IMG/VR virus record: IMGVR_UViG_3300044998_000560
Span: 1-59,154 of that record
DNA length: 59,154 nucleotides
Direction: 5' to 3' (one strand)
Origin: a virus
Below the pieces are notes generated by a model that saw only the letters and a program-made list of their open reading frames with translations, ran no database searches and was not told the DNA's origin. The position numbers and the translations under genes are program-made. This document shows, piece after piece, positions 19,489 to 53,303 of this stretch (the stretch's first letter is position 1; each line of letters starts with the position of its first letter).

Positions 19489-20130
19489 ATGCCAAAAGCA
19501 TTTAAGCAATATATCCAAGAAGCAATCGGAAACAAATATGTCAACCACCAACTTCTTTCAAAAAAAGGATATGAATTAATGGGAACGGATCAATATTATA
19601 AAAAAGGTGCTCCTGGAATTAAATTAAAGAAAGGTGCTGAATGGGTTTCACTGAAAGATCCTAAATTAAAAGGAAAATCTACAACAGATTTGGCAAGATA
19701 TTTGCGTTCAACGGGTGGTTTCCAAATTGATGAAGATGTTATAAAAAGTGAGGCGCATGCAAAGAAGCTTTATAAAAAATATAAGAAAGAATTAGAAAAA
19801 TATGATGATATGGAAAAACGTAAAATTCGTATGCTCCCGGGTGAACAGATCCGTTCTAGAGAATTGCGTTTTAAGATGAAAAAGTTAAAGAAAATGATTG
19901 GTCCTGATTATCCTATGGAAGAAGTAAATGATTTGGAAGAAAAATGTCACGGTAAGGTAGATAATTTATCGTCTGATAAAAATCCTAATGTAAAAGAGGG
20001 TATGAATTGGAAACCATATACTTTTAGACGAAAGCGCGAAAAAGAGATGAATGTAAATAGAGAAAAAGAAAGGATGACCGGAATGAAAAAGATTCCGATT
20101 GATATGAAATTTAAGCAAAAGAATAGTTAA
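19489..20130 (+). CDS. lysine-rich head-internal protein with capsid-targeting propeptide
   Basis: A 213-residue strongly basic protein. The N-terminus MPKAFKQYIQEA lines up with the T4 internal-protein capsid targeting sequence MKTYQEFIAEA and ends in I-Q-E|A, which fits the T4 prohead protease rule [IL]-x-E|[AGS]. Cleavage after E11 is predicted. The rest is Lys/Glu-rich helix (HAKKLYKKYKKELEKYDDMEKRK) and a basic tail. It contains SLKDPK...TTDLARYL, which faintly resembles the EDFSLKPK...DLAKR motif of the cluster at 35852-38323. By analogy with T4 internal proteins it would be packed in the head, trimmed, and injected with the DNA. What it does in the host cannot be told. Confidence 0.65.
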   Translation: MPKAFKQYIQEAIGNKYVNHQLLSKKGYELMGTDQYYKKGAPGIKLKKGAEWVSLKDPKLKGKSTTDLARYLRSTGGFQIDEDVIKSEAHAKKLYKKYKKELEKYDDMEKRKIRMLPGEQIRSRELRFKMKKLKKMIGPDYPMEEVNDLEEKCHGKVDNLSSDKNPNVKEGMNWKPYTFRRKREKEMNVNREKERMTGMKKIPIDMKFKQKNS

Positions 20131-20132
20131 CT

Positions 20133-21032
20133 ATGCCAACAAATCCATACTTAAATCATTTAGGATTTACAAATATGAATGAACAGCTTTTGTATAACAA
20201 TCTTATACAAGAAGCGATTCGTAATTATGGTATGGATGTTATCTATATTCCGAAAACAATTTCTAAATTGGATTTACTATTCGGAGAAGATGTATTAAAG
20301 AAATTTGAAAAATATTATCCAATTGAAATGTATTTTGAATCTGTTGATGGATTTTCTGATGACAGAAATTTTCTTTCCAAATTTGGTTTAGAAATACGAA
20401 AACAAGCAAATTTTGTTGTTTCTGTGGATCGCTTTTCGCAAGAAGTACAAGATGATCCGAGTGTGGCTGTTCGCCCAAATGAAGGTGATTTGATTTACAT
20501 GCCATTAACTCGTGATTTGTTCGAAATTGTATTTGTCGATCATGAAGCAATTTTCTGGCAACTAGGAAAAGTTTTTGTTTGGCGTATACTTGTAGAAAAA
20601 TTTGCTTATTCTTCAGAAGAAATTAATACAGGAATCCCGGATATTGACACAATAGAAACGAATAATACAATGGTACAAGGTCCTATTTTTACAATACAAT
20701 TAGAATCTGGTGGTTGGGGATATACTACTGCTCCAACAGTTGTTATTACTGGCGGCGGAGGCTCCGGTGCTTCTGCTATCGCTACAATCAATACAAACGG
20801 AAATGTTATTTCTGTATCCGTTTCTTTTAATCCATTAACATTTGTTCCGTATACGAGTCCACCAACAATTACATTTACTGGTGGAAATGGGTATGGGGCA
20901 AGAGCGAGAGCAATTCTTGTTGATAATAATTATGGTTCAAAACCTGGATCAAATAATACTTTAATACAAAATGATGCTGATGAAATTCTCGATTTCTTGG
21001 AAAGAGATCCATTCAGTGGAGGCAATTATTAA
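20133..21032 (+). CDS. 14: gp14-like neck protein
   Basis: A 299-residue relative of T4 gp14 (256 residues). Typical features are the opening NPYLNHLGFTNMNEQLLYNNLIQEAIRNYGMDVIYIPKT, seen here in two adjoining pieces, and FGLEIRKQANFVVSVDRF near residue 90. It forms the neck with gp13 and joins the completed tail to the head. The extra length comes from two GSGYT-type beta modules at about residues 190-270 (GGWGYTTAPTVVITGGGGSG, then YTSPPTITFTGGNGYG) placed before the conserved C-terminal FLERDPFSGG. It overlaps gp15 by one base (TAATG). Confidence 0.9.
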   Translation: MPTNPYLNHLGFTNMNEQLLYNNLIQEAIRNYGMDVIYIPKTISKLDLLFGEDVLKKFEKYYPIEMYFESVDGFSDDRNFLSKFGLEIRKQANFVVSVDRFSQEVQDDPSVAVRPNEGDLIYMPLTRDLFEIVFVDHEAIFWQLGKVFVWRILVEKFAYSSEEINTGIPDIDTIETNNTMVQGPIFTIQLESGGWGYTTAPTVVITGGGGSGASAIATINTNGNVISVSVSFNPLTFVPYTSPPTITFTGGNGYGARARAILVDNNYGSKPGSNNTLIQNDADEILDFLERDPFSGGNY

Positions 21033-21808
21033 TGCTTTCACATTCCCCTTTTTATCATAGTCATTTAAGAAAATTGATTACATCATTCGGAACAATTTTC
21101 AATGATATATCTATTCAAAGAAAAGATAATACGGATAATGTAATAAAAACTATTTCTGTTCCTATTTCTTATGCTCCGAAAGAATTTTGGGTGGCAAGAT
21201 TACAACAAGACCCGAATCCAAATATTCCAGGACAAGCTACACCTATAAAGATGATTGTTCCGAGAATGGGTTTCGAAATGATAAATATGACATATGACCA
21301 TACGAGAAAATTAATTTCTACGGGTCAAAATGTCGCAATTAATACTGAAGAAGGTGATACGATTCTTTCTCAATTTCAGCCTGTTCCTTGGAATATTGAT
21401 TTTGGATTATATATTATGACAAGAAATATTGATGATTCATTACAAATTATCGAACAAATATTGCCATTTTTTACTCCCGATTTTATGATAACGATAAAAG
21501 AAATGCCGGGAATGAATTTAATTCGTGATATTCCTATTGTATATGGTGGTATTTCTTCTGAAATTATTTTTGATGGAACACCCGATAAAGTAAGAACAAT
21601 AATGTGGAATCTTTCTTTCACGATGAAAGGATATCTATATCAACCTATAAGAAAAGTGAAAATAATTAAAGATTCTACTGTTAATTTAATCGCCGAATCT
21701 ACGAAAGGTAATTCGGGAACATCAATCCGTGCTGTAGTTGACCCCATTGATGCTAAATTTGATGATACTTGGCAAATACAAACAGAGATTAGAGATTTTT
21801 CAGAATAA
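21032..21808 (+). CDS. 15: gp15-like tail sheath terminator/stabiliser
   Basis: A 258-residue protein (T4 gp15 is 272). The opening FYHSHLRKLITSFGTIFNDI is the family signature, followed by PRMGFEMINMTYDHTRKL in the middle and VPWNIDFGLYIMTRNIDDSL written here as the conserved core. Gp15 forms a hexamer on the last sheath ring and provides the surface that docks to the neck. Coupled to gp14 by a one-base overlap. After its stop comes a late-type element and the fibre island. Confidence 0.92.
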   Translation: MLSHSPFYHSHLRKLITSFGTIFNDISIQRKDNTDNVIKTISVPISYAPKEFWVARLQQDPNPNIPGQATPIKMIVPRMGFEMINMTYDHTRKLISTGQNVAINTEEGDTILSQFQPVPWNIDFGLYIMTRNIDDSLQIIEQILPFFTPDFMITIKEMPGMNLIRDIPIVYGGISSEIIFDGTPDKVRTIMWNLSFTMKGYLYQPIRKVKIIKDSTVNLIAESTKGNSGTSIRAVVDPIDAKFDDTWQIQTEIRDFSE

Positions 21809-21811
21809 ATA
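21804..21811 (+). promoter_or_regulatory. late-promoter-like element AATAAATA before the fibre island
   Basis: AATAAATA matches the late element except for the first base and overlaps the gp15 stop codon. The fibre gene ATG is at 21828, giving a predicted leader of about 11 bases containing AGAGA. Confidence 0.4.
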
Positions 21812-21827
21812 AAAAAGAGAACAAATT

Positions 21828-23405
21828 ATGAACAATAAGGCTTTAAGAGAACGCAAAAAATTATCTTCTGATAATAATACATTTACCGGGAAACCAGGTG
21901 AAATTGTAATCGTTACGGATGAAAAAACGCTCGCCATTCATGATGGAGTAACCGCTGGTGGTGTGAAATTATCGAAAGAAGATGCTAATTCTACATCTAT
22001 ACATCAACACGCAACGGCAACGCAATCGACACCAGGATTTTTAAGTGCTGCGGATAAAACAAAATTGGATAATCTTTCGCAACAAGCACTACCACCAGCT
22101 TCTTCTCAAAATAATCCAGATACTCTCGTTAGGAGAGACACAAACGGTGATTTTGCAGCTAGAAATATAACAGCAACACAATTTATCGGTGCTTTAAGTG
22201 GATTGGCAACAGGAATTTCTGGTAATTTATCGGGTGATGTTACTAGCATAGGAATGGTTACAACTCTACAATCGGTTACTACTCCAGGTAATTATGGTTC
22301 TTCAACAGAAGTTCCGAGAATTACTGTTGATGCAAAAGGAAGAATTACTGCTGTTCAATTACAACCAATTTCCGCTACTGCCAGCGGCGCCGCCGGTGGA
22401 GACCTGGGTGGTAATTATCCAAATCCAACAGTAGAGACGGTTGGAACAAGAACCAAAGCACAAATTTCTCAGAGTGTTTTGGATACTATTAATGCTACAA
22501 ATTCACCAACAGCAAATACAATAGTGAAACGGGACAGTAGTTCTAAGTTTAGATCCGGATTAACTTCTATATCAGATTCTTCTGATACAGTAGTATCGAA
22601 ATCATATGTTGATGCTTTGGGTGGTTCCGGAGGTTATTCTAATTTTGCTGTCTACAGAAGAAATCCGTCTTCCGGAACACAAGAAATTTCTGTGAATGGT
22701 GCAAGTTTTACTAACACAAATGCGGGAACATTTTCTGTACCTTCAAATGTTAGAGTTGTTGGTATGATTTTAGTTTCTGGTGGACAAGGTGGATTTTATA
22801 TCATTAGAGGAACGGGGTCGTTTTTAGTTGGAGACCCTGGTGGAACATCAGGGGCAGTCTTTTATGCTTCTATGGTTCCTGTTGTTCCTGGATCGAATTT
22901 ATCCATTACTATAGGTAGTGGTGGTAACGGTGGATATTGGGATAATATAAGTTCGATGATAATGAATCCTGCCGATGGTGGATCAACAATAGTATCTGGA
23001 TTACTTTCATTTTTAACAGGATCCGCTTCAAAAACGATAACCATTCCTGGTGGTACTTCAAGCAATATGAACCAATTTACTAGTGGATCTTCTCCTATCT
23101 ATTTTTTCATTCCTACTTTAGGTGGTGATTATGCTTATTTACCGAACATTAGAAAAACCGCTAATATTTTTGGTGTAGGTGGTGCAGTTGCAGGAACACC
23201 AACACCGGAATCTACTGTAGCGTTTGGTAGTTTTTCTCCTATAGGAACAATTTTAGAATTAGGAAATCCAAGCACGCCTGGGATTCAAACAACACCTACT
23301 AGGTCTGGAATAGGATCAGGTGGCTCAAGTACTGTCGTTTTGTCAGGAAATTCTTCTATTTCTGCTGGAGCAGGTGGACATGGATATGCAATTATTTTCT
23401 ATTAG
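21828..23405 (+). CDS. tail fibre/adhesin with glycine-rich C-terminus
   Basis: A 525-residue modular fibre protein. The N-terminus (RERKKLSSDNNTFTGKPGEIVIVTDEKTLAIHDG, read in two parts) is a common phage fibre start domain that describes a flat attachment segment. Residues about 90-270 contain the widely shared fibre repeats ([20 protein letters not shown], then GDVTSIGMVTTLQS and GGDLGGNYPNPTVETVG). The last ~240 residues are Gly/Ser-rich (IGSGGNGGYWD, GAGGHGYAIIFY), like glycine-rich host-range adhesins of T4-like phages. The role is host recognition. Similar repeat units occur in the fibre at 24600, so segments may exchange by recombination. The gene end overlaps the S26-protease gene by 26 bases. 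Confidence 0.75.
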   Translation: MNNKALRERKKLSSDNNTFTGKPGEIVIVTDEKTLAIHDGVTAGGVKLSKEDANSTSIHQHATATQSTPGFLSAADKTKLDNLSQQALPPASSQNNPDTLVRRDTNGDFAARNITATQFIGALSGLATGISGNLSGDVTSIGMVTTLQSVTTPGNYGSSTEVPRITVDAKGRITAVQLQPISATASGAAGGDLGGNYPNPTVETVGTRTKAQISQSVLDTINATNSPTANTIVKRDSSSKFRSGLTSISDSSDTVVSKSYVDALGGSGGYSNFAVYRRNPSSGTQEISVNGASFTNTNAGTFSVPSNVRVVGMILVSGGQGGFYIIRGTGSFLVGDPGGTSGAVFYASMVPVVPGSNLSITIGSGGNGGYWDNISSMIMNPADGGSTIVSGLLSFLTGSASKTITIPGGTSSNMNQFTSGSSPIYFFIPTLGGDYAYLPNIRKTANIFGVGGAVAGTPTPESTVAFGSFSPIGTILELGNPSTPGIQTTPTRSGIGSGGSSTVVLSGNSSISAGAGGHGYAIIFY

Positions 23406-23718
23406 AGGTTATAGTTTAGAACCGGATTTAAAAGATAAAGATGTAATTACTATAGAAAAGAAAAATAATTATGAAAAAGGTGATATTGTTGTTTTAGATT
23501 TACCAAAATATGGACGAATAATAAAAAAAATTACACATGTTGCCGGAGAAGAGTTTCCAGAAGATGGTTGTTTAAAAGAATGGAAAAAGTTTTATAATAT
23601 TATTCCAAAAGGATATGCTATCGTTATGGGTAATGCTATAAATAGTATAGATAGTAGAAAATTTGGTCCAATAAATATAAGTTCAATAATGGGAGTAGCA
23701 AAAAAAGTAAATGCCTAA
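23380..23718 (+). CDS. signal-peptidase-like (S26/S24) serine protease
   Basis: A 112-residue soluble protein with every conserved box of type I signal peptidases. It has Ser12 in GYSLEP (family SMEP), a basic pair at residues 49-50 in GRIIKKITHVAGE (family KR.xGLPGE, catalytic Lys), and GYAIVMGNAINSIDSRKFGP near the end (family GDN..SxDSRxxGP). There is no membrane anchor when it starts at 23380, which has GGAG nine bases upstream; a GTG at 23320 would add a weakly hydrophobic stretch. Placed between fibre genes, it may process a fibre or another virion protein. That is inference; an alternative is a captured host-like protease acting on a host target. It overlaps neighbours at both ends. 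Confidence 0.75.
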   Translation: MDMQLFSIRGYSLEPDLKDKDVITIEKKNNYEKGDIVVLDLPKYGRIIKKITHVAGEEFPEDGCLKEWKKFYNIIPKGYAIVMGNAINSIDSRKFGPINISSIMGVAKKVNA

Positions 23719-24607
23719 TCCAAACACTGCTGTTTTTCCTTCTGCGATTGCTACAGATTCTACTTTTCCTGTTGCTACTGGTTCATTCCAAACTATTTTA
23801 ACATCCGCCATTAATAATTCCACAACAACTATTCCAGTCGGATCAACAAATTCTGAGGTTCCTATTATATTGAGAATTAATAATGAATTAATTTTGGCTA
23901 TAAACAAATCAGGAAATAATTTTATAAATTGTGTTCGTGGTTTTTATGGTACTACGGCGATTTCTCATTCCTCCGGTGCAAATGTTTTTTGTTATATTAC
24001 AGCATATCATTTTAACCAATTGGCAAAAGAATTGATTGCTGTTCAAACTGCATTAGGCGTAAATCTAGAAAATATTACACCATTAATAGCACCACAATAT
24101 ATATATTATAGGGTTGGTATTGTTCAGGATGATAATCCAACTCTAGCGTTTTCTGTAAAAACAGCAACAAAGCCAACTGTTGTAAAAATAGAATATAATA
24201 GAGTTTTGACAGCCGCCGCACAATATGGAGCAGGATCTTCTCAAGAAATGTATGAAAACCTTTTTGTTCCGGAAGATTTTTTAGAAGAAAGTAATATCGA
24301 ATTAATAATGACTTGGAATACTCCTGAAACAATAGGAAATGTGAGATGGGAATTATATGCATCTGAAGTTGAATCTGGTGATAGTTTAGATATACCATCA
24401 TGGACAATAAGTTCTTTTGTTCAAGATACTGTTCCTGGTATAACAGAAAGATTGGTTAAGTCAACAATTGTAGCATCTACTATAGGATTAACATTGTCAG
24501 GTAAACATCTTTTCTTTAAAATTATGAGAGGAACTGATACTGCTGCTGGTCCAGCAAATTTAATTTCAGCAAAATTTAAGTTAATGAGAGCGATGTCAAA
24601 TGCCTAA
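23711..24607 (+). CDS. fibre/adhesin-like protein, paralogous N-terminus A
   Basis: A 298-residue protein. The first ~120 residues ([17 protein letters not shown]..., [20 protein letters not shown]) are clearly paralogous to the start of the next gene and probably form the domain that docks to a shared tail site. The remainder (about 130-298) is a different beta-rich domain ([35 protein letters not shown]) similar to small phage surface sandwiches. It overlaps the protease gene by eight bases: the first codons ATG CCT AA also encode the last residues Asn-Ala and the stop of the upstream gene in another frame. Likely a receptor-interacting protein, by position. Confidence 0.65.
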
Positions 24608-26186
24608 TCCAAATACTGCTGTTTTTCCTGCTTCTATTCCAACAGATGTCTCGTTAGCTGGTGTTGCTACTGACAATCTTTATACCACTTTATCGGCATC
24701 TATCAATAATAGCCAGACAAATAATATTGCCGTAACTTCTAGTTCTTTTGAAGTACCTGCTCTATTGTTGATTGATTCAGAATTGATTCTTGTGGAATCA
24801 AAAGCAGGGAATATTTTAAATGATGTAACTCGTGGATTTGCAGGAACGACCGCTGCATCACATCTCGCGGGTGCAAATGTTTATGGGTATATATTTGCCT
24901 TCAAAATGAATCAGATTTCTGCTGAAATAAAAGCCATTTGTAATTCATTAGGGCAAAATCTCTCAAATATACTTTATTCAGGACGTTCTGCTGGAGGTGA
25001 TTTAGCAGGGACATATCCTAATCCAACATTAGCAAATATTGTTGGATTGACACCAGGAACATTTGGTGAAGGGGAATATGTTCCAGTAATAACTGTTGAT
25101 CAGAAAGGTAGAATTACAGAAATATCCGAAACACCAATTACTATTACAGGTGGTGGAAACCCAACAGGTCCAGCAAGTGGTGATTTAGGAGGTACATATC
25201 CATCACCAACTGTCGAAACTGTTGGAAGCAAAACAAAAACAGAAATTTCAAATACCGTAAATAAAGTTGCAAATTCTACAAACGCAAATGTTGTTTCTAC
25301 TTTAGTTGAAAGAGATTCGAATGGAGATTTTGCGGCTAGAAATATAACAGCAACACAATTTATTGGTTCTTTAACAGGAAATGTAAATGGTAATGTGACA
25401 GGAAATGTTTCTGGTACTGCTGCTTCTTTTACAGGAAATCTGACAGGTGATGTTACTAGCGTAGGTATGACAACTACGCTTTCTAACACTCCTGTTACTC
25501 CTGCCGAATATGGATCTTCAACACAAGTTGCTAAAATCACCATTGATTCAAAAGGGAGAATTACTGCTGCTGTTAATGAAACAATTTCCGGTGTTATACC
25601 AGGTGGAGCGGCTGGTGGAGATTTAGCAGGTACATACCCAAATCCAACAGTTTCTAAATCTTCATTTACATCATTTTCAATTAATGATGTCCGTATAAAA
25701 GATAATTCGGGAAATATTCAATTTAGAAATTTTAATGATGATGCATTTATTGATATTGAAGCGAAGAGGATTTTTCAAAAAGAATTTTCTAACGTACCAG
25801 CAACACTAAAATATAGTATTCCTTATACAGATTTAGTGGATGCTGATGTAACACAGGAAATTATTTTTGCTTCATTGCCCGCGAAAGCAAAAGTGTTAGC
25901 AATAACATTAAAAACAGAAACAGAATTTTCTGGTTCTGGATTTACATCCGTGAATGTAGAAATTGGTGATGGAAATATAGATGATTATTATGTAACCGTA
26001 TATGATTGTGATGCTACTGTTTCCAATACAAATTATAGTGATACTCAAATGTACAAATCGCCCACATTTAGTCCTAGTAATTTGGTTGCTAAATTTACAG
26101 CAAATCAAAATTTTGGAAACGGAACAACAACAAATTTAAGTTCCGGTAACCTAGATATATGGGTTACTGTTGTTGTTCTTCTATAG
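24600..26186 (+). CDS. tail fibre protein, paralogous N-terminus B
   Basis: A 528-residue modular fibre. The first ~120 residues match the start of the upstream gene ([17 protein letters not shown]..., [20 protein letters not shown]). Then come repeated fibre units ([12 protein letters not shown] three times; [20 protein letters not shown]; a [13 protein letters not shown] stretch) and a distinct C-terminal ~140 residues ([20 protein letters not shown]) that may be the tip. Several units match the fibre at 21828 in protein and closely in DNA. The overlap with its upstream neighbour repeats the ATGCCTAA arrangement. The role is host binding, inferred from family. Confidence 0.72.
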
Positions 26187-26198
26187 GAGGTCAAACTG

Positions 26199-27227
26199 AT
26201 GGCTTTTGTAGATTGTGAAGGATTCGAATCTCTTTATTCGAATGCACCTTCATTAAAAGAAGAATTTATATCAATAGCCGCCGTAACTAGTAGTACAGAT
26301 CCACAAATAACTGCATTTGGTTTTGGGAAATGTTTCGGAACAGGTATAGGTACATTTGATCAATTGTTTGTTTCCAAATTTCCAGGTTTAGTAAACAAAA
26401 AAACAATTTTCTTCAATTGGCATTTTAAAAATGTAATTAATAATACTATTACTTTTAATTTACTAACACTACAAGATGAAAGTATAACACAGGTTGCTTT
26501 AAGAAGAAATGGAGATGGTTCATTTTCCGCTCTTAGAGGCTCTACGGTTTTAGCAACATCACCTATAATTACAACTAATAATCAATATTATTTCCTTCAA
26601 TTAAAAGTTGTAATTGATTCTACGAATGGTGAATTTATATTTAAAGTGGACAATTCGACAGTTTTTAATTTAACCGGAATTAATACACAAAATACTGCAA
26701 ACGATTATGTAAATAGATATACATTTAATGCACAATCTAATACAATTTATATTGATAATGTTGTTATTTATGATGATAGTGGGTCTGTAATGAATGATTT
26801 TACAGAAGAAACGAGAGTAATAGGTCAATATCCTACAGGAAATGGTGACACGATTGAATGGACTCCCAATACTTCAACCAATTTTTCTAGAGTAAATCAG
26901 AATTATGATGGGGATACAACATATAATTTTACCGATACGGTAGGACACACTGATTTATTTACATATGCTTCTCTTGTTACATCAGGAGCAAATGTATATG
27001 CTATAAAAGTGGGATCCACATTTAGAAAAGATGATGCTAATACAAACGCGGTCGTAAATGTGGTAAAAAGTGGTGGTACGATTTATGAAGATCCTGCTGG
27101 TCCGTATGAATCTTCTCCTTCTTACATAATCAAAGAATGGATTATGATAAATGATCCAAATACATCTTCACCATGGACTGTTTCTGCGGCAAATGCTATT
27201 CAATCAGGAATAAGAAGAAAATTATAA
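26199..27227 (+). CDS. duplicated lectin-like surface protein, copy 1
   Basis: A 342-residue protein opening MAFVDCEGFESLYSN. It has a sandwich-like middle (YYFLQLKVVIDSTNGEFIFK, then VDNSTVFNLTG) of the kind seen in LamG/concanavalin domains and a conserved C-terminal third (NTSTNFSRVNQNYDGDTTY, YESSPSYIIKEWIM). It is a paralogue of the next gene: long blocks are identical in DNA while the first ~60 and scattered segments differ. A strong ribosome site (AGGAGG) precedes the ATG. The likely role is a fibre-associated surface binder. No catalytic motif is seen. Confidence 0.65.
   Translation: MAFVDCEGFESLYSNAPSLKEEFISIAAVTSSTDPQITAFGFGKCFGTGIGTFDQLFVSKFPGLVNKKTIFFNWHFKNVINNTITFNLLTLQDESITQVALRRNGDGSFSALRGSTVLATSPIITTNNQYYFLQLKVVIDSTNGEFIFKVDNSTVFNLTGINTQNTANDYVNRYTFNAQSNTIYIDNVVIYDDSGSVMNDFTEETRVIGQYPTGNGDTIEWTPNTSTNFSRVNQNYDGDTTYNFTDTVGHTDLFTYASLVTSGANVYAIKVGSTFRKDDANTNAVVNVVKSGGTIYEDPAGPYESSPSYIIKEWIMINDPNTSSPWTVSAANAIQSGIRRKL
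26584..26726 (+). repeat. 143-bp block identical to 27624-27766
   Basis: Bases 26584-26726 and 27624-27766 are identical by direct reading, at an offset of 1040. Further near-identical blocks with the same offset lie at 26862-26957/27902-27997 (with a two-base difference) and 27051-27146/28091-28186. They belong to the two paralogous lectin-like genes. Confidence 0.9.
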
Positions 27228-27241
27228 TAGGAGTTAATGGA

Positions 27242-28267
27242 ATGTCTTTTGTAGATTGTGAAGGATTCGAAACTATCAATAACAATGATGTAAAAGAAAC
27301 ACTCATAGGAGTTTCTAATAATTATATCACGAGTAGTGATCCACAAATTACTGCTTTTGGATATGGTACAGCTTATGGAAAAAATGTCGGTGGTGCTGAA
27401 GATACCTTTTCTTGTTATTTTCCAGGTTTAGTAAACAAAAAAACAATTTTCTTCAATTGGCACCTGAAAGGTAATTCTACCACTGCTTCAACCAATATGC
27501 ATTTGACGCTGTTAGATGGTGCATCAACACAGGTCGTTTTAAGAAGAAATGGAGACAATTCATTTTCCGCTCTTAGAGGCTCTACGGTTTTAGCAACATC
27601 TTCTCCAATAATTACAGTAACAAAATATTATTTCCTTCAATTAAAAGTTGTAATTGATTCTACGAATGGTGAATTTATATTTAAAGTGGACAATTCGACA
27701 GTTTTTAATTTAACCGGAATTAATACACAAAATACTGCAAACGATTATGTAAATAGATATACATTTTTAGTATTATCAAATTTTAATTTCATTGATAATG
27801 TTGTTGTTTATGATGATGCAGGAACACAAATGAATGATTTTACACCAGAAACTAGGGTTTTTGGTCAATTCCCTACTGCTAATGGTGATATAAATGAATT
27901 TACTCCCAATACTTCAACCAATTTTTCTAGAGTAAATCAGAGATATGATGGGGATACAACATATAATTTTACCGATACGGTAGGACACACTGATTTATAT
28001 GCATATAATGCTTTAGTACCTTCTGGATCTGCTGTATATGGAGTAAAGACAAGCATTTTCTTTAGGAAATCGGATTTAGGAGATAATGAGGTCGTAAATG
28101 TGGTAAAAAGTGGTGGTACGATTTATGAAGATCCTGCTGGTCCGTATGAATCTTCTCCTTCTTACATAATCAAAGAATGGATTATGGAAAAAAATCCAAA
28201 TACAAATGATTTTTGGACCGTTTCTGGAGCAAACTCATTACAAACAGGAATTAGAAGGAAATTATAG
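27242..28267 (+). CDS. duplicated lectin-like surface protein, copy 2
   Basis: A 341-residue paralogue of the upstream gene, opening MSFVDCEGFETINNN. The start at 27242 is preferred over an earlier in-frame codon because AGGAG lies eight bases before it and because it aligns with the start of copy 1. It keeps the middle sandwich and the C-terminal region of copy 1. Differences cluster at the N-terminal variable region, around residues 175-215 and around 255-285, as expected if surface loops diversify while the scaffold is conserved or homogenised. Function as for copy 1. Confidence 0.65.
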   Translation: MSFVDCEGFETINNNDVKETLIGVSNNYITSSDPQITAFGYGTAYGKNVGGAEDTFSCYFPGLVNKKTIFFNWHLKGNSTTASTNMHLTLLDGASTQVVLRRNGDNSFSALRGSTVLATSSPIITVTKYYFLQLKVVIDSTNGEFIFKVDNSTVFNLTGINTQNTANDYVNRYTFLVLSNFNFIDNVVVYDDAGTQMNDFTPETRVFGQFPTANGDINEFTPNTSTNFSRVNQRYDGDTTYNFTDTVGHTDLYAYNALVPSGSAVYGVKTSIFFRKSDLGDNEVVNVVKSGGTIYEDPAGPYESSPSYIIKEWIMEKNPNTNDFWTVSGANSLQTGIRRKL

Positions 28268-28276
28268 GAATACATA

Positions 28277-28600
28277 ATGCCATCAAGAACAACTCAAATA
28301 ACATTACAAATTCCAATAAAACCAACACAATCAGCTTCCCGCGTTACAAATATTACATCACAAATCACTGAAGGTACGGGAACATCATCAAATTTTTCGT
28401 TTTTAACAAAAGCGACACGGGATATTGTAAATACATTTAATACAAATCTATCACATATAACAAAAGCAACACGAGATGTTGTGTGTTCTGTGTATCCAGT
28501 TCCGAATGATACAAGAATAACACAAGCAACAAGGCAAATCGTTTGTGAGGTAAAAAGAGAACCAGTATTTGGACATATAAATATTCCTATAGGATATTAA
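28277..28600 (+). CDS. short repeat protein with ATR motifs
   Basis: A 107-residue protein with three spaced copies of [TI]-[KQ]-A-T-R-[DQ]-[IV]-V (TKATRDIV, TKATRDVV, TQATRQIV) at 18-20 residue spacing and weaker related segments before them (SRTTQITLQI, SRVTNITSQI). Similar R.T..I...I series occur in the C-terminal parts of phage structural proteins and may form a solenoid or trimeric bundle. It follows the lectin-like pair and precedes the terminase. It is unassigned; a small fibre or decoration component is the best guess. Confidence 0.5.
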   Translation: MPSRTTQITLQIPIKPTQSASRVTNITSQITEGTGTSSNFSFLTKATRDIVNTFNTNLSHITKATRDVVCSVYPVPNDTRITQATRQIVCEVKREPVFGHINIPIGY

Positions 28601-28604
28601 ATGA

Positions 28605-29165
28605 ATGAAAAATGTTGCTGAGAAATTAAATGAAGTATTAGGTATTGCCGAAGAATTAATACAAGAAGAAAGAGAAGAAAATAAAGTTGTGGAAATGATT
28701 CCAGTTTCCACAACACCATCTATATCTCCTTCTCCTATTACAAACAATTCAATCAATACTTCTATTGATATTTTCCAAGAGATAGAAGAAAGTACAAAAG
28801 AAAGAATTTCGGAATTAAATGAAGACATAAAAGCGGCGAGAGATAACCTTTCTTTTCTAATAAAAATTGGTAAAGATGCTGCTGATGAATTACAAAATTT
28901 GGCTATTGAATCGGAAGAACCAAGAATGTATGAAGTATTCAGTGAATTAATTAATAGTATTTCTTCTGTGACAAAGGAAATGATTTCACTTCATAAAGTC
29001 CGATCCGATATTATAAGAAATGAATTTGAAAGAAAACGTCCAGTAAAAGAAGAAATAAAAAATTTAACACAAAATAACACCACAGTATATTTAAATACTA
29101 CTGATGTTATAAAAGCGATCCGTGAAGGTGCGATGGATGCCGACATACAATCAACAGCAGATTAA
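28605..29165 (+). CDS. 16: gp16-like small terminase subunit
   Basis: A 186-residue protein (T4 gp16 is 164). The central helical pair (ARDNLSFLIKIGKDAADELQ, then MYEVFSELINSISSVTKEMI) is the conserved core of T4-type small terminases, which form a ring that regulates the packaging motor. N- and C-terminal parts are variable and charged. It overlaps the large terminase start by about 29 bases, the arrangement expected for co-expressed 16 and 17. Confidence 0.85.
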   Translation: MKNVAEKLNEVLGIAEELIQEEREENKVVEMIPVSTTPSISPSPITNNSINTSIDIFQEIEESTKERISELNEDIKAARDNLSFLIKIGKDAADELQNLAIESEEPRMYEVFSELINSISSVTKEMISLHKVRSDIIRNEFERKRPVKEEIKNLTQNNTTVYLNTTDVIKAIREGAMDADIQSTAD

Positions 29166-30783: not shown

Positions 30784-30797
30784 GAAATCCTTTTTTT

Positions 30798-30805
30798 GAT
30801 AAATA
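30798..30805 (+). promoter_or_regulatory. late promoter GATAAATA ahead of the sheath gene
   Basis: GATAAATA lies 15 bases after the terminase stop, leaving a leader of about 56 bases before the gp18 ATG at 30867, with AAGGAG as ribosome site. The element sits in the loop of a weak imperfect hairpin (AAATCCTTTTT ... AAAAAGGAATTT). Confidence 0.6.
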
Positions 30806-30866
30806 CAAACAGACATAAAAAGGAATTTTTTATATTTTTTTGTTTTAGATAAGGAGAATCAATAAA

Positions 30867-32774
30867 ATGGCATTCCAGATTTCACCAGGTGTGCTGACAA
30901 GAGAAATCGACCTTTCAACATATATACCAGCCATTGGAACAACTACCGGAGCAATTGCTGGATTATTTCAATGGGGTCCCGTTGAACAAAGAGTTCTTGT
31001 CGATAGTCCACTTTCTTTAGAAAAAGTTTTTGGTAAACCAGATAACGAGACTTATATAGATTGGTTTAGCGCATTCAATTTCTTATCATATGGAAATTCA
31101 CTCTTAGTGATTCGCGCCGCTTCTGCTGCTGCAAAAAATGCAATTGCAAATAGTGGTAAAGTCGCTTCTCTCACCATTGTTTCCGGTGGATCCGGATATA
31201 ATGCAGGAGATACTACAGTAACAATTTCTGCTCCACCTCCTGGCGGAACACAAGCAACAGCAACATTAGTTATTGAAGGAGGAGTAATTACAGGAATTAC
31301 AATTACGAATCCTGGATCTGGTTATACTTCTGCTCCTACTGTTACGGTTACAGATTCAAATTTAACACCTGGATCTGGTGCAAATATTACCGCTGCTCTT
31401 TATGTTCCTGTATTAATAAAAAATCTCGACGATTATACAGTAAATTATGCAGCCGGAGAAGGAAATGTTGGTATGTGGGCGGCAAAATATCCAGGTGAAT
31501 TAGGAAATTCTCTTACTGTTTCGATTGCTGATTCCGCATCATTTGCTGCTTGGGTATATAAAGATTTCTTTTCCTCAGCACCAGAAGTCGGGGAAGTTCA
31601 TGTGATTGTTGTAGATAAAGGTGGTGTGATTTCAGGTACTCCTGATACCGTTCTTGAAAAATTTGAATTTATGAGTAAGGCGGTTGATGCAAAGAAAGAA
31701 GATGGATCCTCAAACTATTACGCAAACGTAATCAATAGAACATCTTCATGGATTTGGTGGATGGATCACCCAGTCGGATCGAACTGGGGTGCGGTAGAGG
31801 GAACAACATTCACAACAATTAGTACAGCATTGACAGAACGTCTTGGTGGTGGTGTTTCCGGAAACAATTCCGCAACCTCTTCCGCTTACATCAATGCTTG
31901 GAATTTAGTACAAAATGGTGATGATGTTGATGTATCGTTGTTAATAGGAAGTTCTCCAAATGTTTCTGATAATGTCGCAATAGTTTACCAACATATTGTC
32001 GATAATATTTGCGAAGTTCGAAGAGATGTTGTAGCATTTTTCTCTCCGGAAATGAGTGATGTTGTATCAAATCCCGGTAATGAATTGGATGATACCGTAG
32101 AATTCTTCACAACAACATTGAATCGTCCAACTTCATATGCGGTTGCCACATGTAATTGGAAATATCAATATGATAAATTCAATGATACATTCCGTTGGGT
32201 TCCTGATAATGGAGATATTGCTGGATTATGTGTAAGAACAGATAGAGATAGAGATCCTTGGTATTCACCAGCAGGATTTAATCGTGGTGTGTTAAAGAAT
32301 GTTGTGGATCTTGCTTGGAAACCATCACAAGCGGATAGAGATGTTCTTTATGTAAATGGAATAAATCCTGTAACCACATTCAAAGGTCTTGGACCTGTAT
32401 TGTATGGAGATAAGACTCTATTAAGAAAACCATCGGCATTTGATAGAATCAATGTCCGCCGTCTGTTTATTGTTTTGGAAAAAGCAATTTCAACCGCAGC
32501 AAAATACTCATTATTTGAGTTTAATGATTCCTTTACGAGAGTTCAATTTCGAAATCTTGTTGAACCATTCTTAAGAGATGTTCAAGGAAGAAGAGGAATC
32601 TTTCAATTTCGTGTCGTTTGTGATGAAACGAATAATACACCAGAAGTAATTGATAGTAATAGATTTATTGGTGATATTTACATTAAACCAGCGAGATCAA
32701 TTAATTTTATTCAATTAAATTTCGTTGCAACAAGAACAGGTGTTGCATTTGAGGAAATTGTTGGTAAATTTTAA
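30867..32774 (+). CDS. 18: gp18-like tail sheath protein
   Basis: A 635-residue contractile sheath protein (T4 gp18 is 659). The opening [20 protein letters not shown] and the following [14 protein letters not shown] are sheath signatures. The C-terminal part ([39 protein letters not shown]) contains the conserved domain IV/handshake region. Two GSGYT-type beta modules (about residues 102-178; [15 protein letters not shown]) are inserted near the N-terminus and would be displayed on the outside of the sheath. It is followed by an intrinsic terminator, so it forms its own late transcript. Confidence 0.94.
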
Positions 32775-32802
32775 AAAAGAGGGAGAAGACTCCCTCTTTT
32801 TC
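32774..32802 (+). terminator. intrinsic terminator after gp18
   Basis: An 11-bp perfect stem (AAAAGAGGGAG pairing with CTCCCTCTTTT, 32775-32785 with 32790-32800), a four-base loop and a T tract. It begins at the sheath stop codon. Confidence 0.85.
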
Positions 32803-32804
32803 AC

Positions 32805-32826
32805 CATAAATATATTAGAATAAATA
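32805..32826 (+). promoter_or_regulatory. two late-promoter elements ahead of the tube gene
   Basis: CATAAATA (32805-32812) and AATAAATA (32819-32826) follow the gp18 terminator and precede the gp19 ATG at 32845. Both match the late element at seven of eight bases. The second gives a leader of about 13 bases containing AGAGGA. Confidence 0.6.
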
Positions 32827-32844
32827 ATTTAAGAGGAATAAAAA

Positions 32845-33411
32845 ATGTCGTTAACAGTACAAGATTTTAGAGCCCAATTGAAATTTGGTGGTGCAAGACC
32901 TACTCTTTTCAAAGTAACTCTTCCATTTCCGTTGGTGACTCCTGATACTGATGCCTCCACAAAATTAACATTTACATGTGAGGCAGCTTCATTACCTTCA
33001 TCAAATGTTTCAGCAATACAAGTTATGTATATGGGGCGCCAAACAAAATGGGCTGGTGATAGAACATTTGATGATTGGAATGTAACTATCATTAATGATG
33101 AAGATTTTAAAGTCAGAAAGGCTTTTGAAAGATGGCTTTCCGCTTTAAATTCTCACTATTCAAACTTAAGAAATCCTGGTGCCGTAGAAACAACTGGATA
33201 TCAGGTCGATGCTTTTGTGACACAACTAAGCCGCACAGGAGAAGTTATTGAAGGATATAAATTCATTGGAATGTTTCCAACAACAATAACACCTATTGAA
33301 TTGGCGTGGGGATCTACAGATACGATAGAAAGATTCAACGTTTCACTTTCTTATCAGTGGTGGGAGAATGCTCAAACTGATGGGCAAGGTGGAGCCGCTT
33401 TTAATCTATAA
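32845..33411 (+). CDS. 19: gp19-like tail tube protein
   Basis: A 188-residue tube protein (T4 gp19 is 163). Family features are FRAQLKFGGARPTLFKVTLP at the start, CEAASLPSSNVSAIQVMYMG (the LPs turn and following strand), and the end ERFNVSLSYQWWEN. Hexameric rings stack to form the inner DNA channel surrounded by gp18. It has its own late promoters just after the gp18 terminator, which would allow the tube to be expressed independently of the sheath. Confidence 0.93.
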   Translation: MSLTVQDFRAQLKFGGARPTLFKVTLPFPLVTPDTDASTKLTFTCEAASLPSSNVSAIQVMYMGRQTKWAGDRTFDDWNVTIINDEDFKVRKAFERWLSALNSHYSNLRNPGAVETTGYQVDAFVTQLSRTGEVIEGYKFIGMFPTTITPIELAWGSTDTIERFNVSLSYQWWENAQTDGQGGAAFNL

Positions 33412-33458
33412 AATGGTATTTTTGTGTTTTTTTAATAAGTAAGCGAGGAAAATAATAA

Positions 33459-35204
33459 ATGGCAAATTGGCGCCTATTTGGATTTAGTATTGGAGATCCA
33501 GCCGAAAAATATAAAAAAGAATTAGAAAAACAAAAATCTTTTTCTATTCCTACTAATGAAGATGGTGCGGTAGTAATTCAGGCTGGTGGTGTTTTTGGTA
33601 CTTATGTGGATCTTGACGGAGCTTCTGCTAAAAATGAAGTTGAATTAATTACGAAATATCGTGAAATGTCTCTTACTCCGGAGGCATCAATGGCTATAGA
33701 TGATATAGTTAATGAAGCGATAGTGATGGAGGATAATAAACCTCCAGTAAAACTCATTACAGATGATTTGCCATATGACAAGTCATTTAAGGGGAAATTA
33801 AATGACGAATTTGATAATATCATTGGACTTTTGGATTTTAATAACATCGGTTATGAAATATTTAGGCGTTGGTATGTTGATGGTAGGCTTTATTTCCATA
33901 TCATCATTGATGAAGAAAATCCTCACGAAGGCATCAAAGAATTAAGATATATTGATCCGAGAAAAATAAGAAAGGTACGGGAAATTAAAAAGAAAATTGA
34001 TAATATTACTGGATCCGAAGTAATTACGGATATACAAGAATATTATATTTTCAACGAGAAAGGAATACAATCTTCCGCAGGTTTGTATACTGCTACGGGT
34101 ATGGGTGGTGTGAAAATTTCTGTTGATTCAATATGTTATGTAAATTCCGGTCTTGTTGATGCACAATATAACACGATAGTTTCTCACCTTCATAAAGCAA
34201 TCAAACCATTAAATCAATTAAGAATGATTGAAGATGCGATAGTAATATATCGTCTTTCAAGAGCACCAGAAAGAAGAATATTTTATATTGATGTTGGTAA
34301 TTTGACGAAAACAAAAGCTGAAGCATATCTTAAAGAAGTTATGCAAAGATATAGAAATAAATTGGTTTATGATTCTAATACCGGTGAAATTCGTGATGAC
34401 AAACGGCATTTATCAATGTTAGAAGATTTTTGGCTTCCAAGAAGGGAAGGTGGAAAAGGAACGGAAGTTTCAACTCTCCAGGGTGGTCAAAATCTTGGAG
34501 AAATACAAGATGTAATGTATTTTAAGGAAAAATTATATAGAGCACTAGATGTTCCTTTAAGTAGATTACAAACGGAATCTGGTTTTTCTTTAGGACGCGC
34601 TTCTGAAATTACTCGTGATGAGTTGAAATTTACAAAAGCTATCCACAGGATGAGAATTCGCTTTTCTCATTTATTTGACAAATTATTAAAAATACAATGC
34701 ATTTTAAAAGGAATTATTGCCGAAGAAGATTGGGAAGAAATTACTAAAAAGATTTATTATAAATACCAAAAAGATTCTTATTTTTCTGAATTGAAAAATT
34801 CAGAAATTCTCCAAAATCGTGCGACGGTTCTACAACAATTAGAACCATATGTTGGAAAATATTATTCAAAAGATTATGTATACAAAAATGTTCTGCTTAT
34901 GAATGAAGAAGAAATAGAGGATATGAAGGTGAAAATAGAAACTGAGAGAAAAGAAGAATCTGAAAACAATTTAAATCAATTTAATAATACACAAAATGAT
35001 ATGAATACATTACCTTTTGATCCGAATATATCACCTGATGATCAAAACGCTCAACCACAGAATTTTCCTACTAATGAATTACCATTACCGCAAGAAAATA
35101 AAAAACAAGAACCGGGCAGAAAAAAACAAGAATTTAGGAACGAAAAAGAAATTAATTTAGTAAAAAGAGAGAAAAAAGAAAATCCTAAATTTATGTCCAA
35201 ATAA
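33459..35204 (+). CDS. 20: gp20-like portal protein
   Basis: A 581-residue portal (T4 gp20 is 524). Conserved segments include MSLTPEASMAIDDIVNEAIV (about residue 70), AIKPLNQLRMIEDAIVIYRL and SRAPERRIFYIDVGNL (about residues 247-285), and VPLSRLQTESGFSLGRASEI (about residue 365). A dodecamer occupies one capsid vertex, initiates head assembly and passes DNA. The last ~90 residues are Asn/Gln- and Lys-rich and disordered in appearance (NNLNQFNNTQNDMNT), longer than in T4. Confidence 0.95.
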   Translation: MANWRLFGFSIGDPAEKYKKELEKQKSFSIPTNEDGAVVIQAGGVFGTYVDLDGASAKNEVELITKYREMSLTPEASMAIDDIVNEAIVMEDNKPPVKLITDDLPYDKSFKGKLNDEFDNIIGLLDFNNIGYEIFRRWYVDGRLYFHIIIDEENPHEGIKELRYIDPRKIRKVREIKKKIDNITGSEVITDIQEYYIFNEKGIQSSAGLYTATGMGGVKISVDSICYVNSGLVDAQYNTIVSHLHKAIKPLNQLRMIEDAIVIYRLSRAPERRIFYIDVGNLTKTKAEAYLKEVMQRYRNKLVYDSNTGEIRDDKRHLSMLEDFWLPRREGGKGTEVSTLQGGQNLGEIQDVMYFKEKLYRALDVPLSRLQTESGFSLGRASEITRDELKFTKAIHRMRIRFSHLFDKLLKIQCILKGIIAEEDWEEITKKIYYKYQKDSYFSELKNSEILQNRATVLQQLEPYVGKYYSKDYVYKNVLLMNEEEIEDMKVKIETERKEESENNLNQFNNTQNDMNTLPFDPNISPDDQNAQPQNFPTNELPLPQENKKQEPGRKKQEFRNEKEINLVKREKKENPKFMSK

Positions 35205-35223
35205 ATAAAGGAGATATAATTAT

Positions 35224-35388
35224 ATGGAAGAAAAACGTTATGGTGCTTCTTTAGGTGTTTATTATAAAGGAAAAACGAAAGTTGAAGAACCAAAAGAAGA
35301 AAAGAATGAAAAGAAAATGACATTAAAGGAAATTTTTGAAACAACAAAAACAAAACCAAGAGGTACTAAAAATGACAATCGCCCATAA
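35224..35388 (+). CDS. 54-residue basic protein in the prohead cluster
   Basis: A short gene reading MEEKRYGASLGVYYKGKT and ending ...GTKNDNRP, with AAAGGAG upstream. It lies just after the portal gene, where T4 encodes the small prohead core protein gp67. It is charged (EEPKEEKNEKK) but shows no clear similarity to gp67, so the correspondence is positional. The last 17 bases overlap the next gene. Probably a small prohead core component. Confidence 0.5.
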   Translation: MEEKRYGASLGVYYKGKTKVEEPKEEKNEKKMTLKEIFETTKTKPRGTKNDNRP

Positions 35389-35752
35389 AATTGTTGAAAA
35401 CATTTTAAAAGATGAGGCACAATCTTGTTTCGAAAATTTCGATGTTGCTTTAAAGATAAAAACATATCCAATTATTTCGGAAGCAGCAAAACAAATTGCT
35501 TCAACTGTTATTTTTGAAGCAAAAGATACACCCTCTGATTTTAATTTACAAGAGAAAATTTATAATTCTTTTCCACCACAAACACAAAAAGCAATTGATT
35601 TTGTTATCGAAAAAGTTGCTGAATACGGTACCAAAAATTTTTCAAATATCATAGAAGACGCGGAAGTTAAGTATGCTATTGTTGATGATAGTTTAAAAGA
35701 ATATTTTGGTCAAGCAATTACAGCAAAATTGTACGAATCAAACGTTCTTTAG
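35372..35752 (+). CDS. prohead-cluster protein (gp68 position)
   Basis: A 126-residue protein. ATG 35372 is chosen over an upstream TTG because AGAGG lies nine bases before it. It opens MTIAHKIVENILKDEAQ, a helical start with a possible prohead-protease-like site (L-K-D-E|A), and continues with a mostly helical sequence (AKQIASTVIFEAKD, KAIDFVIEKVAEYG). It occupies the slot of T4 gp68 between portal and protease genes. No family is recognised. A scaffold/core role is inferred from position only. Confidence 0.5.
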   Translation: MTIAHKIVENILKDEAQSCFENFDVALKIKTYPIISEAAKQIASTVIFEAKDTPSDFNLQEKIYNSFPPQTQKAIDFVIEKVAEYGTKNFSNIIEDAEVKYAIVDDSLKEYFGQAITAKLYESNVL

Positions 35753-35851
35753 AAAAACGGCGATATTAGAGATTATATTGTGGGAAGAAGTTAAAATGGA
35801 TGGAAAAAATATTTTTAAAGAGAATAGTTGTAGTAAAGGCGGTAGAACAAA

Positions 35852-36775
35852 ATGGTAAATCCATCAAAAACAATAGTTTCGTCTATATTAAATGAGGATG
35901 CCGTTACACTTTCAGATACATTTAACGAAACTCTTTTGAAATCTTTACAAAATAAATTAGAATCTGTAAAGATGAAGATTGTTTCGGAAGTTTTTGATAA
36001 TGGTGAATTTTCTGTTCGCCAACTGAAGGAACAGGTGGCAAGAGAAAAAAAATCGTTAAGAGATATGGTATTAGTAGGTTTGTCTTCAAATCTTGTTGAA
36101 GATTTTTCTTTAAAACCAAAGGATAAAGAAGAATTAAAGCGCGGTCGTGTAAGAACAGTAAACAAATTTAGAAATATGCCTAGCCAACATATGGATTCTT
36201 ACCGTGACCACCAGGAATATTATAAGAAAAATCCAACTTGGGCAGGAAAGCCTTCCTTTATGAAATCACCTGCTCATTTTATCGGAATCAAAACTGAAGA
36301 TTTTTCTTTAAAACCAAAAACGAGACAAGATTATGAAGCAAGACGTGTGAATAAACCAATCCATTATGTTCCTGCTAAAAAAATGAATGCCAACTCTCTT
36401 ATTGGAGATAAAGAAAATATGGGAATGAGTCGTAAATCATTACGTTCTTGGAAACCTGTGAAAGAAGATCATTCTCTAAAACTCGCAAATCCTAGACAAA
36501 GAAAATTATTTACTGATTTTTCATCCTTTAAACAACATAAAATAGAGAAGGATGCTGATTTAAAAACAGCAAACGCAATTAAACAGATAAACAAAGAGAA
36601 AAAAGATACTTATAAAAGATGGATGAATAATCGGTGGATGAGAAAGGAAGATTTTTCTTTAAAACCAAAATCTTCGCATGATATAATTTCTCGCAAAGTT
36701 GGTAATCCGAAAAGTATGGTTTCCACTCACCGTAAATCATTATTAAAAAATTTTGCTTTAGGGAGCAAAATTTAA
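35852..36775 (+). CDS. lysine-rich head-internal protein with EDFSLKPK repeats, possibly frameshifted
   Basis: A 307-residue basic protein with three exact EDFSLKPK motifs (residues 83-90, 149-156, 266-273) and one degenerate copy (EDHSLKL, about 205). Each is followed by a polar stretch and then R[RKG]V or similar (DKEELKRGRV, TRQDYEARRV, SSHDIISRKV). The N-terminus MVNPSKTIVSSILNEDA has L-N-E before the first acidic turn, near the protease cleavage rule. The same motif occurs in the next two basic genes, so all are probably encapsidated. After AAAA at 36767-36770 a +1 frame continues for 24 sense codons and stops exactly at the next gene start (TAATG, 36846-36850), so the true end may be 36848. 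Confidence 0.6.
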   Translation: MVNPSKTIVSSILNEDAVTLSDTFNETLLKSLQNKLESVKMKIVSEVFDNGEFSVRQLKEQVAREKKSLRDMVLVGLSSNLVEDFSLKPKDKEELKRGRVRTVNKFRNMPSQHMDSYRDHQEYYKKNPTWAGKPSFMKSPAHFIGIKTEDFSLKPKTRQDYEARRVNKPIHYVPAKKMNANSLIGDKENMGMSRKSLRSWKPVKEDHSLKLANPRQRKLFTDFSSFKQHKIEKDADLKTANAIKQINKEKKDTYKRWMNNRWMRKEDFSLKPKSSHDIISRKVGNPKSMVSTHRKSLLKNFALGSKI

Positions 36776-36847
36776 TCATCGTGGTGATTTGATTAGAACA
36801 AAAGATAATAAGGTTATCGGTGTATCGAAAGGGGTTTCACAATTCTA

Positions 36848-37312
36848 ATGAAGTCTTTTTCCAATTTTATTAAAGAAGCGAAAGGATTGTGGCAACAGAA
36901 TTCTGTTTTCTTTAAAACAGGTCAAAAATATGCCGAAAAAGGAAAGGAAAAAACTCATCCAGACGGACAAAAAAAGCTTTCTCATCAAGAATATTATGAT
37001 CTTCCAAGAGAAGCGAGAAAAGCATATAGAGAAAAATATGGAAATGTGTATGAAGATTTTTCCTTAAAACCGAAAACAAAAAAAGAATTAGATAGAAGAG
37101 AAAAATTAATAAACATACCACAAATACAAGATAAAGTAAAAGGAAAAAATATTGTTCCAATATTAAAAAAGAGTATGGGAAAAAGTGATGATACCGGATC
37201 ACCAAATACTAAAATACAATTTTATAAATGGACAAAATATATTGATAAGATGTCCGGAAAAAAACCAAAATCAATAAGAAAATTTTTCAAAAGAGAATTA
37301 AGTTTAGATTAA
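36848..37312 (+). CDS. head-internal protein with capsid-targeting propeptide and EDFSLKPK
   Basis: A 154-residue very basic protein. MKSFSNFIKEA aligns residue for residue with the T4 internal-protein targeting peptide MKTYQEFIAEA, and I-K-E|A predicts gp21-type cleavage after E10. EDFSLKPK lies at residues 69-76, followed by TKKELDRRE, exactly the same position as in the protein at 37757. It should be packed with the scaffold, processed, and delivered with the genome. Its activity is unknown. The ATG overlaps a TAA in the frame that extends the upstream gene. Confidence 0.7.
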   Translation: MKSFSNFIKEAKGLWQQNSVFFKTGQKYAEKGKEKTHPDGQKKLSHQEYYDLPREARKAYREKYGNVYEDFSLKPKTKKELDRREKLINIPQIQDKVKGKNIVPILKKSMGKSDDTGSPNTKIQFYKWTKYIDKMSGKKPKSIRKFFKRELSLD

Positions 37313-37324
37313 TAGGAGCATTGA

Positions 37325-37747
37325 ATGTCGGTTACAGCACAAATAATTAAAGATTCAACGAGGGAAACCGTCATTAAATTAACAAATTATGGCATAACTG
37401 AATCTGCTGTCACGAAAGTAGATGCCTCCACATTAGTAGGTGCCATAGAAGGACAATCGTTTCATGAAATTGTTATTACTAATATTTCATGGTCTGTTTC
37501 TGGATCTGGTGTGGTCACTTTACTTTGGGACGCAGGAACACCACAACCTATTGTAAATCTGAGTGGATCCGGATCATTGCGTTATACTGGTGGAGAATTT
37601 ATCATGATACGGAATAATGCTTCAAACCCGAATGGAGATATTAAATTGACTACAAATAATTGGGGTGCAACAGTAGCTTATACAATTATTTTAACTCTTT
37701 CCAAATTAACAAATTTTGATAGAGGCGGAGTCGATTCAGTAGGATAG
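37325..37747 (+). CDS. beta-rich capsid-cluster protein
   Basis: A 140-residue protein unlike its basic neighbours: neutral, Thr/Ile/Val-rich, with strand-like alternation (VTAQIIKDSTRETVIKLTN, SFHEIVITNISWSVSG, GEFIMIRNNASNPNGDIKLT). Similar small sandwich proteins in marine T4-like phages lie between portal and protease genes and are found in virions, which suggests a head decoration or completion protein. It has a strong ribosome site (AGGAG). The specific role is not known. Confidence 0.55.
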   Translation: MSVTAQIIKDSTRETVIKLTNYGITESAVTKVDASTLVGAIEGQSFHEIVITNISWSVSGSGVVTLLWDAGTPQPIVNLSGSGSLRYTGGEFIMIRNNASNPNGDIKLTTNNWGATVAYTIILTLSKLTNFDRGGVDSVG

Positions 37748-37756
37748 GATAATCAT

Positions 37757-38323
37757 ATGAAAACATTTAGTCAATTCATACAAGAGTCTATTAATATTAT
37801 CGAACATGCTCCGAGAAAGGTTACTAAGACATTATATAAAGGTCCGATTAAAAAAATCGGAACAAAATATGAAGAAATGAATGGTATGGAAGAAGGATAT
37901 CGGGAACGCCGTAAAGGGGAAAAGAAAACTTCTTCTAACCCCGAATCGAATGTAAAGAAAGAAGATTTTTCTCTGAAACCAAAATCGAAAGAAGATTTAG
38001 CAAAACGGGATTTATCTCATCACCCACCTGTTCCACAAGATGAATATTTCAGACGGTCTGCAAAACGATGGTCAACAAAAGAAATGGATAGAGCACTTAG
38101 GCAGAAAAAGTGGAATATGGATCCGAGAACCGGAAATTTAGAAAACAGAAAAAGAGCGAGTGGTATTTCCGGCGGCGATCTTTCTGCGGCCGTAAAAACA
38201 TCTAGATGGGCGAAAGAAAAGAAAAAATCATTTGGAATTCATTATGGAAAAGTTGATTATATTCCTCAGGGACATAAAGATGCTTATAAAGAAACACTCA
38301 GAAAGAAAGGAATTAAAGTGTAA
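37757..38323 (+). CDS. head-internal protein with capsid-targeting propeptide and EDFSLKPK, copy 2
   Basis: A 188-residue basic protein. MKTFSQFIQES is very close to the T4 targeting peptide MKTYQEFIAEA; I-Q-E|S fits the prohead protease rule, predicting cleavage after E10. EDFSLKPK occurs at residues 69-76 followed by SKEDLAKRD, the same position as in the 36848 protein, though the codons differ (TCT CTG AAA against TCC TTA AAA), showing peptide-level conservation. The remainder is Lys/Arg-rich (SAKRWSTKEMDRALRQKKWN) and could bind DNA. It is adjacent to the protease gene. Role by analogy: injected internal protein or nucleoprotein-core component. Confidence 0.7.
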   Translation: MKTFSQFIQESINIIEHAPRKVTKTLYKGPIKKIGTKYEEMNGMEEGYRERRKGEKKTSSNPESNVKKEDFSLKPKSKEDLAKRDLSHHPPVPQDEYFRRSAKRWSTKEMDRALRQKKWNMDPRTGNLENRKRASGISGGDLSAAVKTSRWAKEKKKSFGIHYGKVDYIPQGHKDAYKETLRKKGIKV

Positions 38324-53297: not shown

Positions 53298-53303
53298 ACT
53301 TGT

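Follow-up and report, generated by a model that had tools for sequence, protein, structure and literature searches.

The internal proteins (IPs) of phage T4 carry an N-terminal capsid targeting sequence (CTS; Mullaney and Black 1996, reviewed in PMC9026906). For targeting, IPIII needs no more than its ten N-terminal residues, and foreign fusions also get packaged; mutagenesis assigns residues 4 and 7 to targeting and residues 8 and 10 to processing (PMC9026906). In the T4 genome (NC_000866.4), IPII and IPIII begin with MKTYQEFIAE|A and IPI with MKTFKEFTSTTTPVSTITE|A, the bar marking the site cut by the prohead protease gp21.

Internal-protein tags in an uncultured T4-like phage

The window analyzed here is a stretch of 59,154 bases from IMGVR_UViG_3300044998_000560, an uncultured T4-like phage in IMG/VR. 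Three of its proteins, designated X, Y and Z, possess a similar N-terminal tag, and the S77 protease gp21, gp22 and gp23 are all encoded in the same genome:

19489–20130, plus strand: protein Z, 213 aa, basic, pI 9.8
19489–19521, plus strand: tag of Z, 11-residue CTS, MPKAFKQYIQE|A
36848–37312, plus strand: protein X, 154 aa, pI 10.0
36848–36877, plus strand: tag of X, 10-residue CTS, MKSFSNFIKE|A
37757–38323, plus strand: protein Y, 188 aa, pI 10.1, immediately upstream of gp21
37757–37786, plus strand: tag of Y, 10-residue CTS, MKTFSQFIQE|S
38329–39027, plus strand: gp21 prohead protease (Pfam Peptidase_S77, E 9.7e-36)
39081–40319, plus strand: gp22 scaffold (Pfam T4_CASP), site SVLTE|A
40380–41711, plus strand: gp23 major capsid protein (Pfam Gp23), site LLNE|A

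A first-pass annotation of this DNA had reported the three open reading frames, aligned their starts with the T4 targeting peptide and pointed to matching sites in gp22 and gp23. The frames and N-termini lie where it had put them, with the same letters; the functional residues do align, and both further sites are present in genes confirmed by Pfam. X and Y keep positions 4, 7, 8 and 10 of the T4 tag, with Phe for Tyr at position 4 (X is identical to IPIII at positions 2, 7, 8 and 10), and Z keeps the same positions with one extra residue before the motif. The small residue following Glu in all three (IKE|A, IQE|S and IQE|A in X, Y and Z) agrees with the gp21 site [LI]-x-E|[ASG].

X, Y and Z thus share with IPI, IPII and IPIII an N-terminal peptide of about ten residues of the form aromatic-x-x-aromatic-Ile-x-Glu, a cleavage site obeying the gp21 rule, and small basic mature parts (computed pI 9.8–10.1) that are mutually unrelated, in a genome with gp21, gp22 and gp23. 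The tag is common to the three proteins though they share no family; X and Y additionally have the octapeptide EDFSLKPK in common. They differ from the T4 proteins in the Phe for Tyr4, in the single 11-residue form and in the lack of a T4 IP family match. Their location differs as well: X and Y adjoin gp21, and Z lies between a gp13-like gene (18721; called from its position and the T4 gene order, without a Pfam match) and gp14 (20133, Pfam T4_neck-protein), whereas the T4 IPs sit in ip loci.

Y gave zero tblastn matches in INPHARED (50,697 phage records), and neither Z nor Y has a homolog in IMG/VR except on one contig, 99.99% identical, that belongs to this very phage. Single-sequence AlphaFold models, of low confidence (mean pLDDT 55 for Z and 59 for Y), place a helix across the tag.

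These features make X, Y and Z very probably internal head proteins whose T4-type CTS would target them to the head and be cleaved off by gp21. They add to a known class, that of internal proteins with a T4-type CTS.

Specificity and spread of the tag

The cleavage rule I-x-E|[AS] alone is not specific, because the start of UvsY (42464–42889; MTFDEIITE|S) obeys it as well but lacks the aromatic spacing. One may therefore ask whether the likeness of the X, Y and Z N-termini is a coincidence, or a generic amphipathic start of the UvsY kind. UvsY demonstrates that I-x-E|S can arise without the rest of the tag, and one match of a relaxed tag pattern, in C48C1, falls on the gene of the UvsW helicase. 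The full pattern behaves differently. Scored on the 56 predicted proteins of the window, M.{2,3}[FYW]..[FYW][ILVM].E[ASG] occurs at 3 of 56 N-termini, and its core has no match at 17,038 internal positions of the same proteins. When residues 2–16 were shuffled, the mean number of N-terminal matches was 0.003, and three were never reached in 20,000 shuffles. Across 27 T4-like records, the relaxed pattern produced 11 matches (in T4 itself exactly ipII and ipIII) against 0 for a control read backward. Taken with the IMG/VR counts below, this makes coincidence very improbable.

IMG/VR was searched with a DNA pattern for the 10-residue form, MK[ST]F..FI.E[AS], which was found in at least 120 stretches; reversing the pattern, which keeps its composition, left 3 matches in the whole collection, and replacement of Glu10 by Gln left 5. 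Among the 123 matches listed, 122 sit at gene starts, with an in-frame stop no more than 30 codons upstream, and 119 have no earlier ATG. The 11-residue form seen in Z yielded at least 119 matches, 110 of them at gene starts.

The first-pass annotation had proposed looking in related phages for genes with the same start followed by unrelated sequence. The outcome was positive, and broadly so: the mature parts behind the tag fall into at least 41 clusters without detectable mutual similarity, and 27 of 41 cluster representatives, among the matches listed, have a pI of 9 or higher. Recognized families behind the tag include adenylate kinase, other AAA kinases, cytidylyltransferase-like proteins, ART-PolyVal and DUF3990, as well as GNAT, DUF6267, DUF5661 and DUF6321. 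An S77 protease scores above the family cut-off in 13 of 40 tagged contigs; of the 16 contigs with a length of 40 kb or more, 9 have one. It speaks against the CTS reading that several long tagged contigs have neither S77 nor gp23; one of them, G033, is probably incomplete, a fragment of a genome, as it encodes gp46 of the T4 type.

Our literature search, conducted mostly outside subscription journals, found no paper describing wider use of the tag or its connection with virion enzymes, and a search by the letters of the tag peptide gave no match. A ten-residue rule readable from sequence would predict virion proteins not yet recognized in an abundant phage group. It would also give a set of candidate cargo proteins in which to look for host takeover or anti-defense activity.

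Head-gene neighborhood and possible roles

The head genes follow the order gp20 (33459), gp67-like (35852), X, a structural-looking protein (37325), Y, gp21, gp22 and gp23. X and Y are thus located within the gp20–gp21 interval, where T4 has gp68. This part of the window contains the following additional features:

35852–36775, plus strand: gp67-like prohead core protein; its long basic tail contains three EDFSLKPK motifs
36098–36121, plus strand: EDFSLKPK copy 1, in the gp67-like frame
36296–36319, plus strand: EDFSLKPK copy 2, in the gp67-like frame
36647–36670, plus strand: EDFSLKPK copy 3, in the gp67-like frame
37052–37075, plus strand: EDFSLKPK copy 4, within protein X
37961–37984, plus strand: EDFSLKPK copy 5, within protein Y
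38983–39024, plus strand: CTS-like C-terminal tail of gp21, IKAFSHFLSEISKY, matching F-x-x-F-[LIM]

All five EDFSLKPK copies lie in the gp67–gp21 interval and differ from each other only by synonymous DNA changes. A DNA pattern for this motif found in IMG/VR only this phage, bar one chance match in a tail-region gene. The motif was also considered as a gp21 cleavage site and rejected, as its P3 position is not consistently hydrophobic.

By eye, the N-terminus of the gp67-like protein resembles T4 gp67 and the short core proteins of Melnitz, HTVC008M and DLP6. In related phages, the gp67–gp21 interval is often occupied by small, basic proteins whose N-terminal part includes an [LI]xE site. No strict tag lies 10 kb or less from gp21 in any of 80 relatives; looser forms do occur in that range.

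Packaging and gp21 cleavage, as the first-pass annotation had suggested, give the best reading of X, Y and Z, considering the conserved residues, the presence of gp21, gp22 and gp23, the specificity of the pattern and the tagged enzymes in virion proteomes discussed below. For this phage we infer both packaging and cleavage, along with all later steps, as follows. The N-terminal peptide of 9–11 residues, with its motif aromatic-x-x-aromatic-[Ile/Leu]-x-Glu, would dock its protein on the core formed by the gp22 scaffold while the prohead assembles; gp21 would cut after the Glu of the tag, and the basic mature protein would stay in the head with the DNA. Judging from the gp68-like position and the motif shared with the gp67-like protein, X and Y would most likely act in or with the prohead core, while Z, and possibly Y, may enter the host along with the DNA.

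What the proteins would do once packaged can be read in two ways. X and Y may belong with gp67 and gp68 among the prohead core (scaffold) proteins, serving assembly only, with the tag as a core-assembly motif and no delivery to the host. They occupy the gp68 slot, in which relatives keep their small basic [LI]xE proteins, they are basic like the tail of T4 gp68, and they share EDFSLKPK with the gp67-like protein; moreover, T4 IPIII itself affects head assembly (PMC9026906). However, X and Y carry an internal-protein tag, unlike T4 gp67 and gp68, from which the EDFSLKPK repeats are also absent. Pfam and PHROGs give no family that ties X and Y to gp67 or gp68. Cleavage breaks core proteins into many pieces, but Y has just one clear gp21-type site, and the argument from position leaves Z uncovered. 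We regard this role as plausible, if slightly short of probable.

Alternatively, X, Y and Z may be injected effectors of host takeover or anti-defense, comparable to T4 IPI and Alt. IPI inhibits GmrSD (PMC3012670), IPIII is required to infect ECOR17 (PMC9391042), and tagged proteins elsewhere belong to ADP-ribosyltransferase, acetyltransferase, kinase and nucleotidyltransferase families. In Pfam and PHROGs, however, none of the three proteins matches any family, enzymatic or anti-defense, and the single-sequence structure models are of low confidence. We view the effector reading as a whole as somewhat doubtful, injection and an anti-defense role being possible. Given their location between gp67 and gp21 and the shared EDFSLKPK, X and Y are at least about as likely to be core components as effectors.

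The tail of gp21 may bear on the proposed docking step. Among relatives (L005–L084), F/W-x-x-F-[LIM] occurs within the last 14 residues in 79 of 79 gp21 proteins, compared with 13 of 675 other open reading frames. It corresponds to the hydrophobic part of the tag (CTS residues 4, 7 and 8), mostly without the Glu; the T4 gp21 tail (AYMALAEAMKKAL) does not strictly fit it. It has been suggested before that the propeptides of gp21 behave as a CTS does (PMC9026906), and the CTS-like end in all 79 relatives suggests that the protease may dock on the core through a motif shared with the tag. This would offer a way for the core to recruit its own protease. Extending this, we tentatively speculate that in aquatic T4-like phages aromatic-x-x-aromatic-[ILM] could be a single short linear motif used generally for docking on the scaffold core. 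Placed at a protein's N-terminus, with a Glu two positions further along, it would form a removable cargo tag; at the C-terminus of gp21 and without Glu, it would be a means of protease recruitment. The cargo would then comprise a large set of virion-borne enzymes, among them nucleotidyltransferases, ADP-ribosyltransferases, kinases and acetyltransferases.

Tagged enzymes in cyanophage virions

By published mass spectrometry, virions of four cyanophages hold proteins whose genes begin with the tag. In S-SM1 this is the cytidylyltransferase T4-GC190 (PMC3037559), encoded by SSM1_190, which starts with MKKFSAFLNE|A; no other tagged gene turned up in the S-SM1 genome. The others are S-CREM2 gp154 (PMC10665884; MKNFSSFLTE|A), S-SCSM1 gp91 (PMC9602691; MKSFLQFLKE|A) and the S-SZBM1 cytidylyltransferase gp140 (PMC9146016), which begins with the nine-residue form MRFRQFIIE|A. 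These cytidylyltransferase/NMNAT enzymes, T4-GC190 and its relatives, have the same tag at their start as X, Y and Z, and unlike them possess a recognizable fold in most cases.

With the pattern fixed beforehand, 3 of 5 tagged genes were detected in virions compared with 0.85 expected (P ~0.036 on the assumption of independence; the three detected enzymes are related to one another). S-SZBM1 gp140 was left out of this count, since its form was noticed only on inspecting that gene, and two pattern matches inside the genes nrdA and gp19 (S-CREM2, S-SCSM1) were left uncounted. Tagged S-SCSM1 gp30 and S-SZBM1 gp192 are not among the virion proteins reported, which counts against the packaging reading.

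Since the tag is found on virion-detected cytidylyltransferases of four cyanophages, it would explain their puzzling presence there and supply a mechanism for the repeated, so far unexplained occurrence of such enzymes in cyanophage virions. Two of the papers allow co-purification of the enzymes instead of carriage, and in the sections consulted none of the four (on S-SM1, S-CREM2, S-SCSM1 and S-SZBM1) mentions a targeting sequence or reports cleavage of the tagged enzymes. For specialists, the point of interest would be this account of virion enzymes together with the broader use of the tag.

Separately, the DUF3008 domain occurs with a CTS-like C-terminal peptide (KRTFKEFLEYIE) in one phage and with an N-terminal tag (MKKSFVDYIAEA) in another; the two cases are L252:4627–4836 (S-SCSM1 gp93, a virion protein) and L257:5672–6313.

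The window has a few other features of note. An 809-aa open frame with a TTG start (50904–53333, minus strand) runs opposite to its neighbors, has no Pfam match and may not be a gene. A small open reading frame with a signal-peptidase-like domain (Peptidase_S26/S24; 23320–23718) lies amid probable tail-fiber genes. Two adjacent genes, at 26199–27227 and 27173–28267, are paralogous, with stretches of about 850 bases that are 83% identical at the DNA level.
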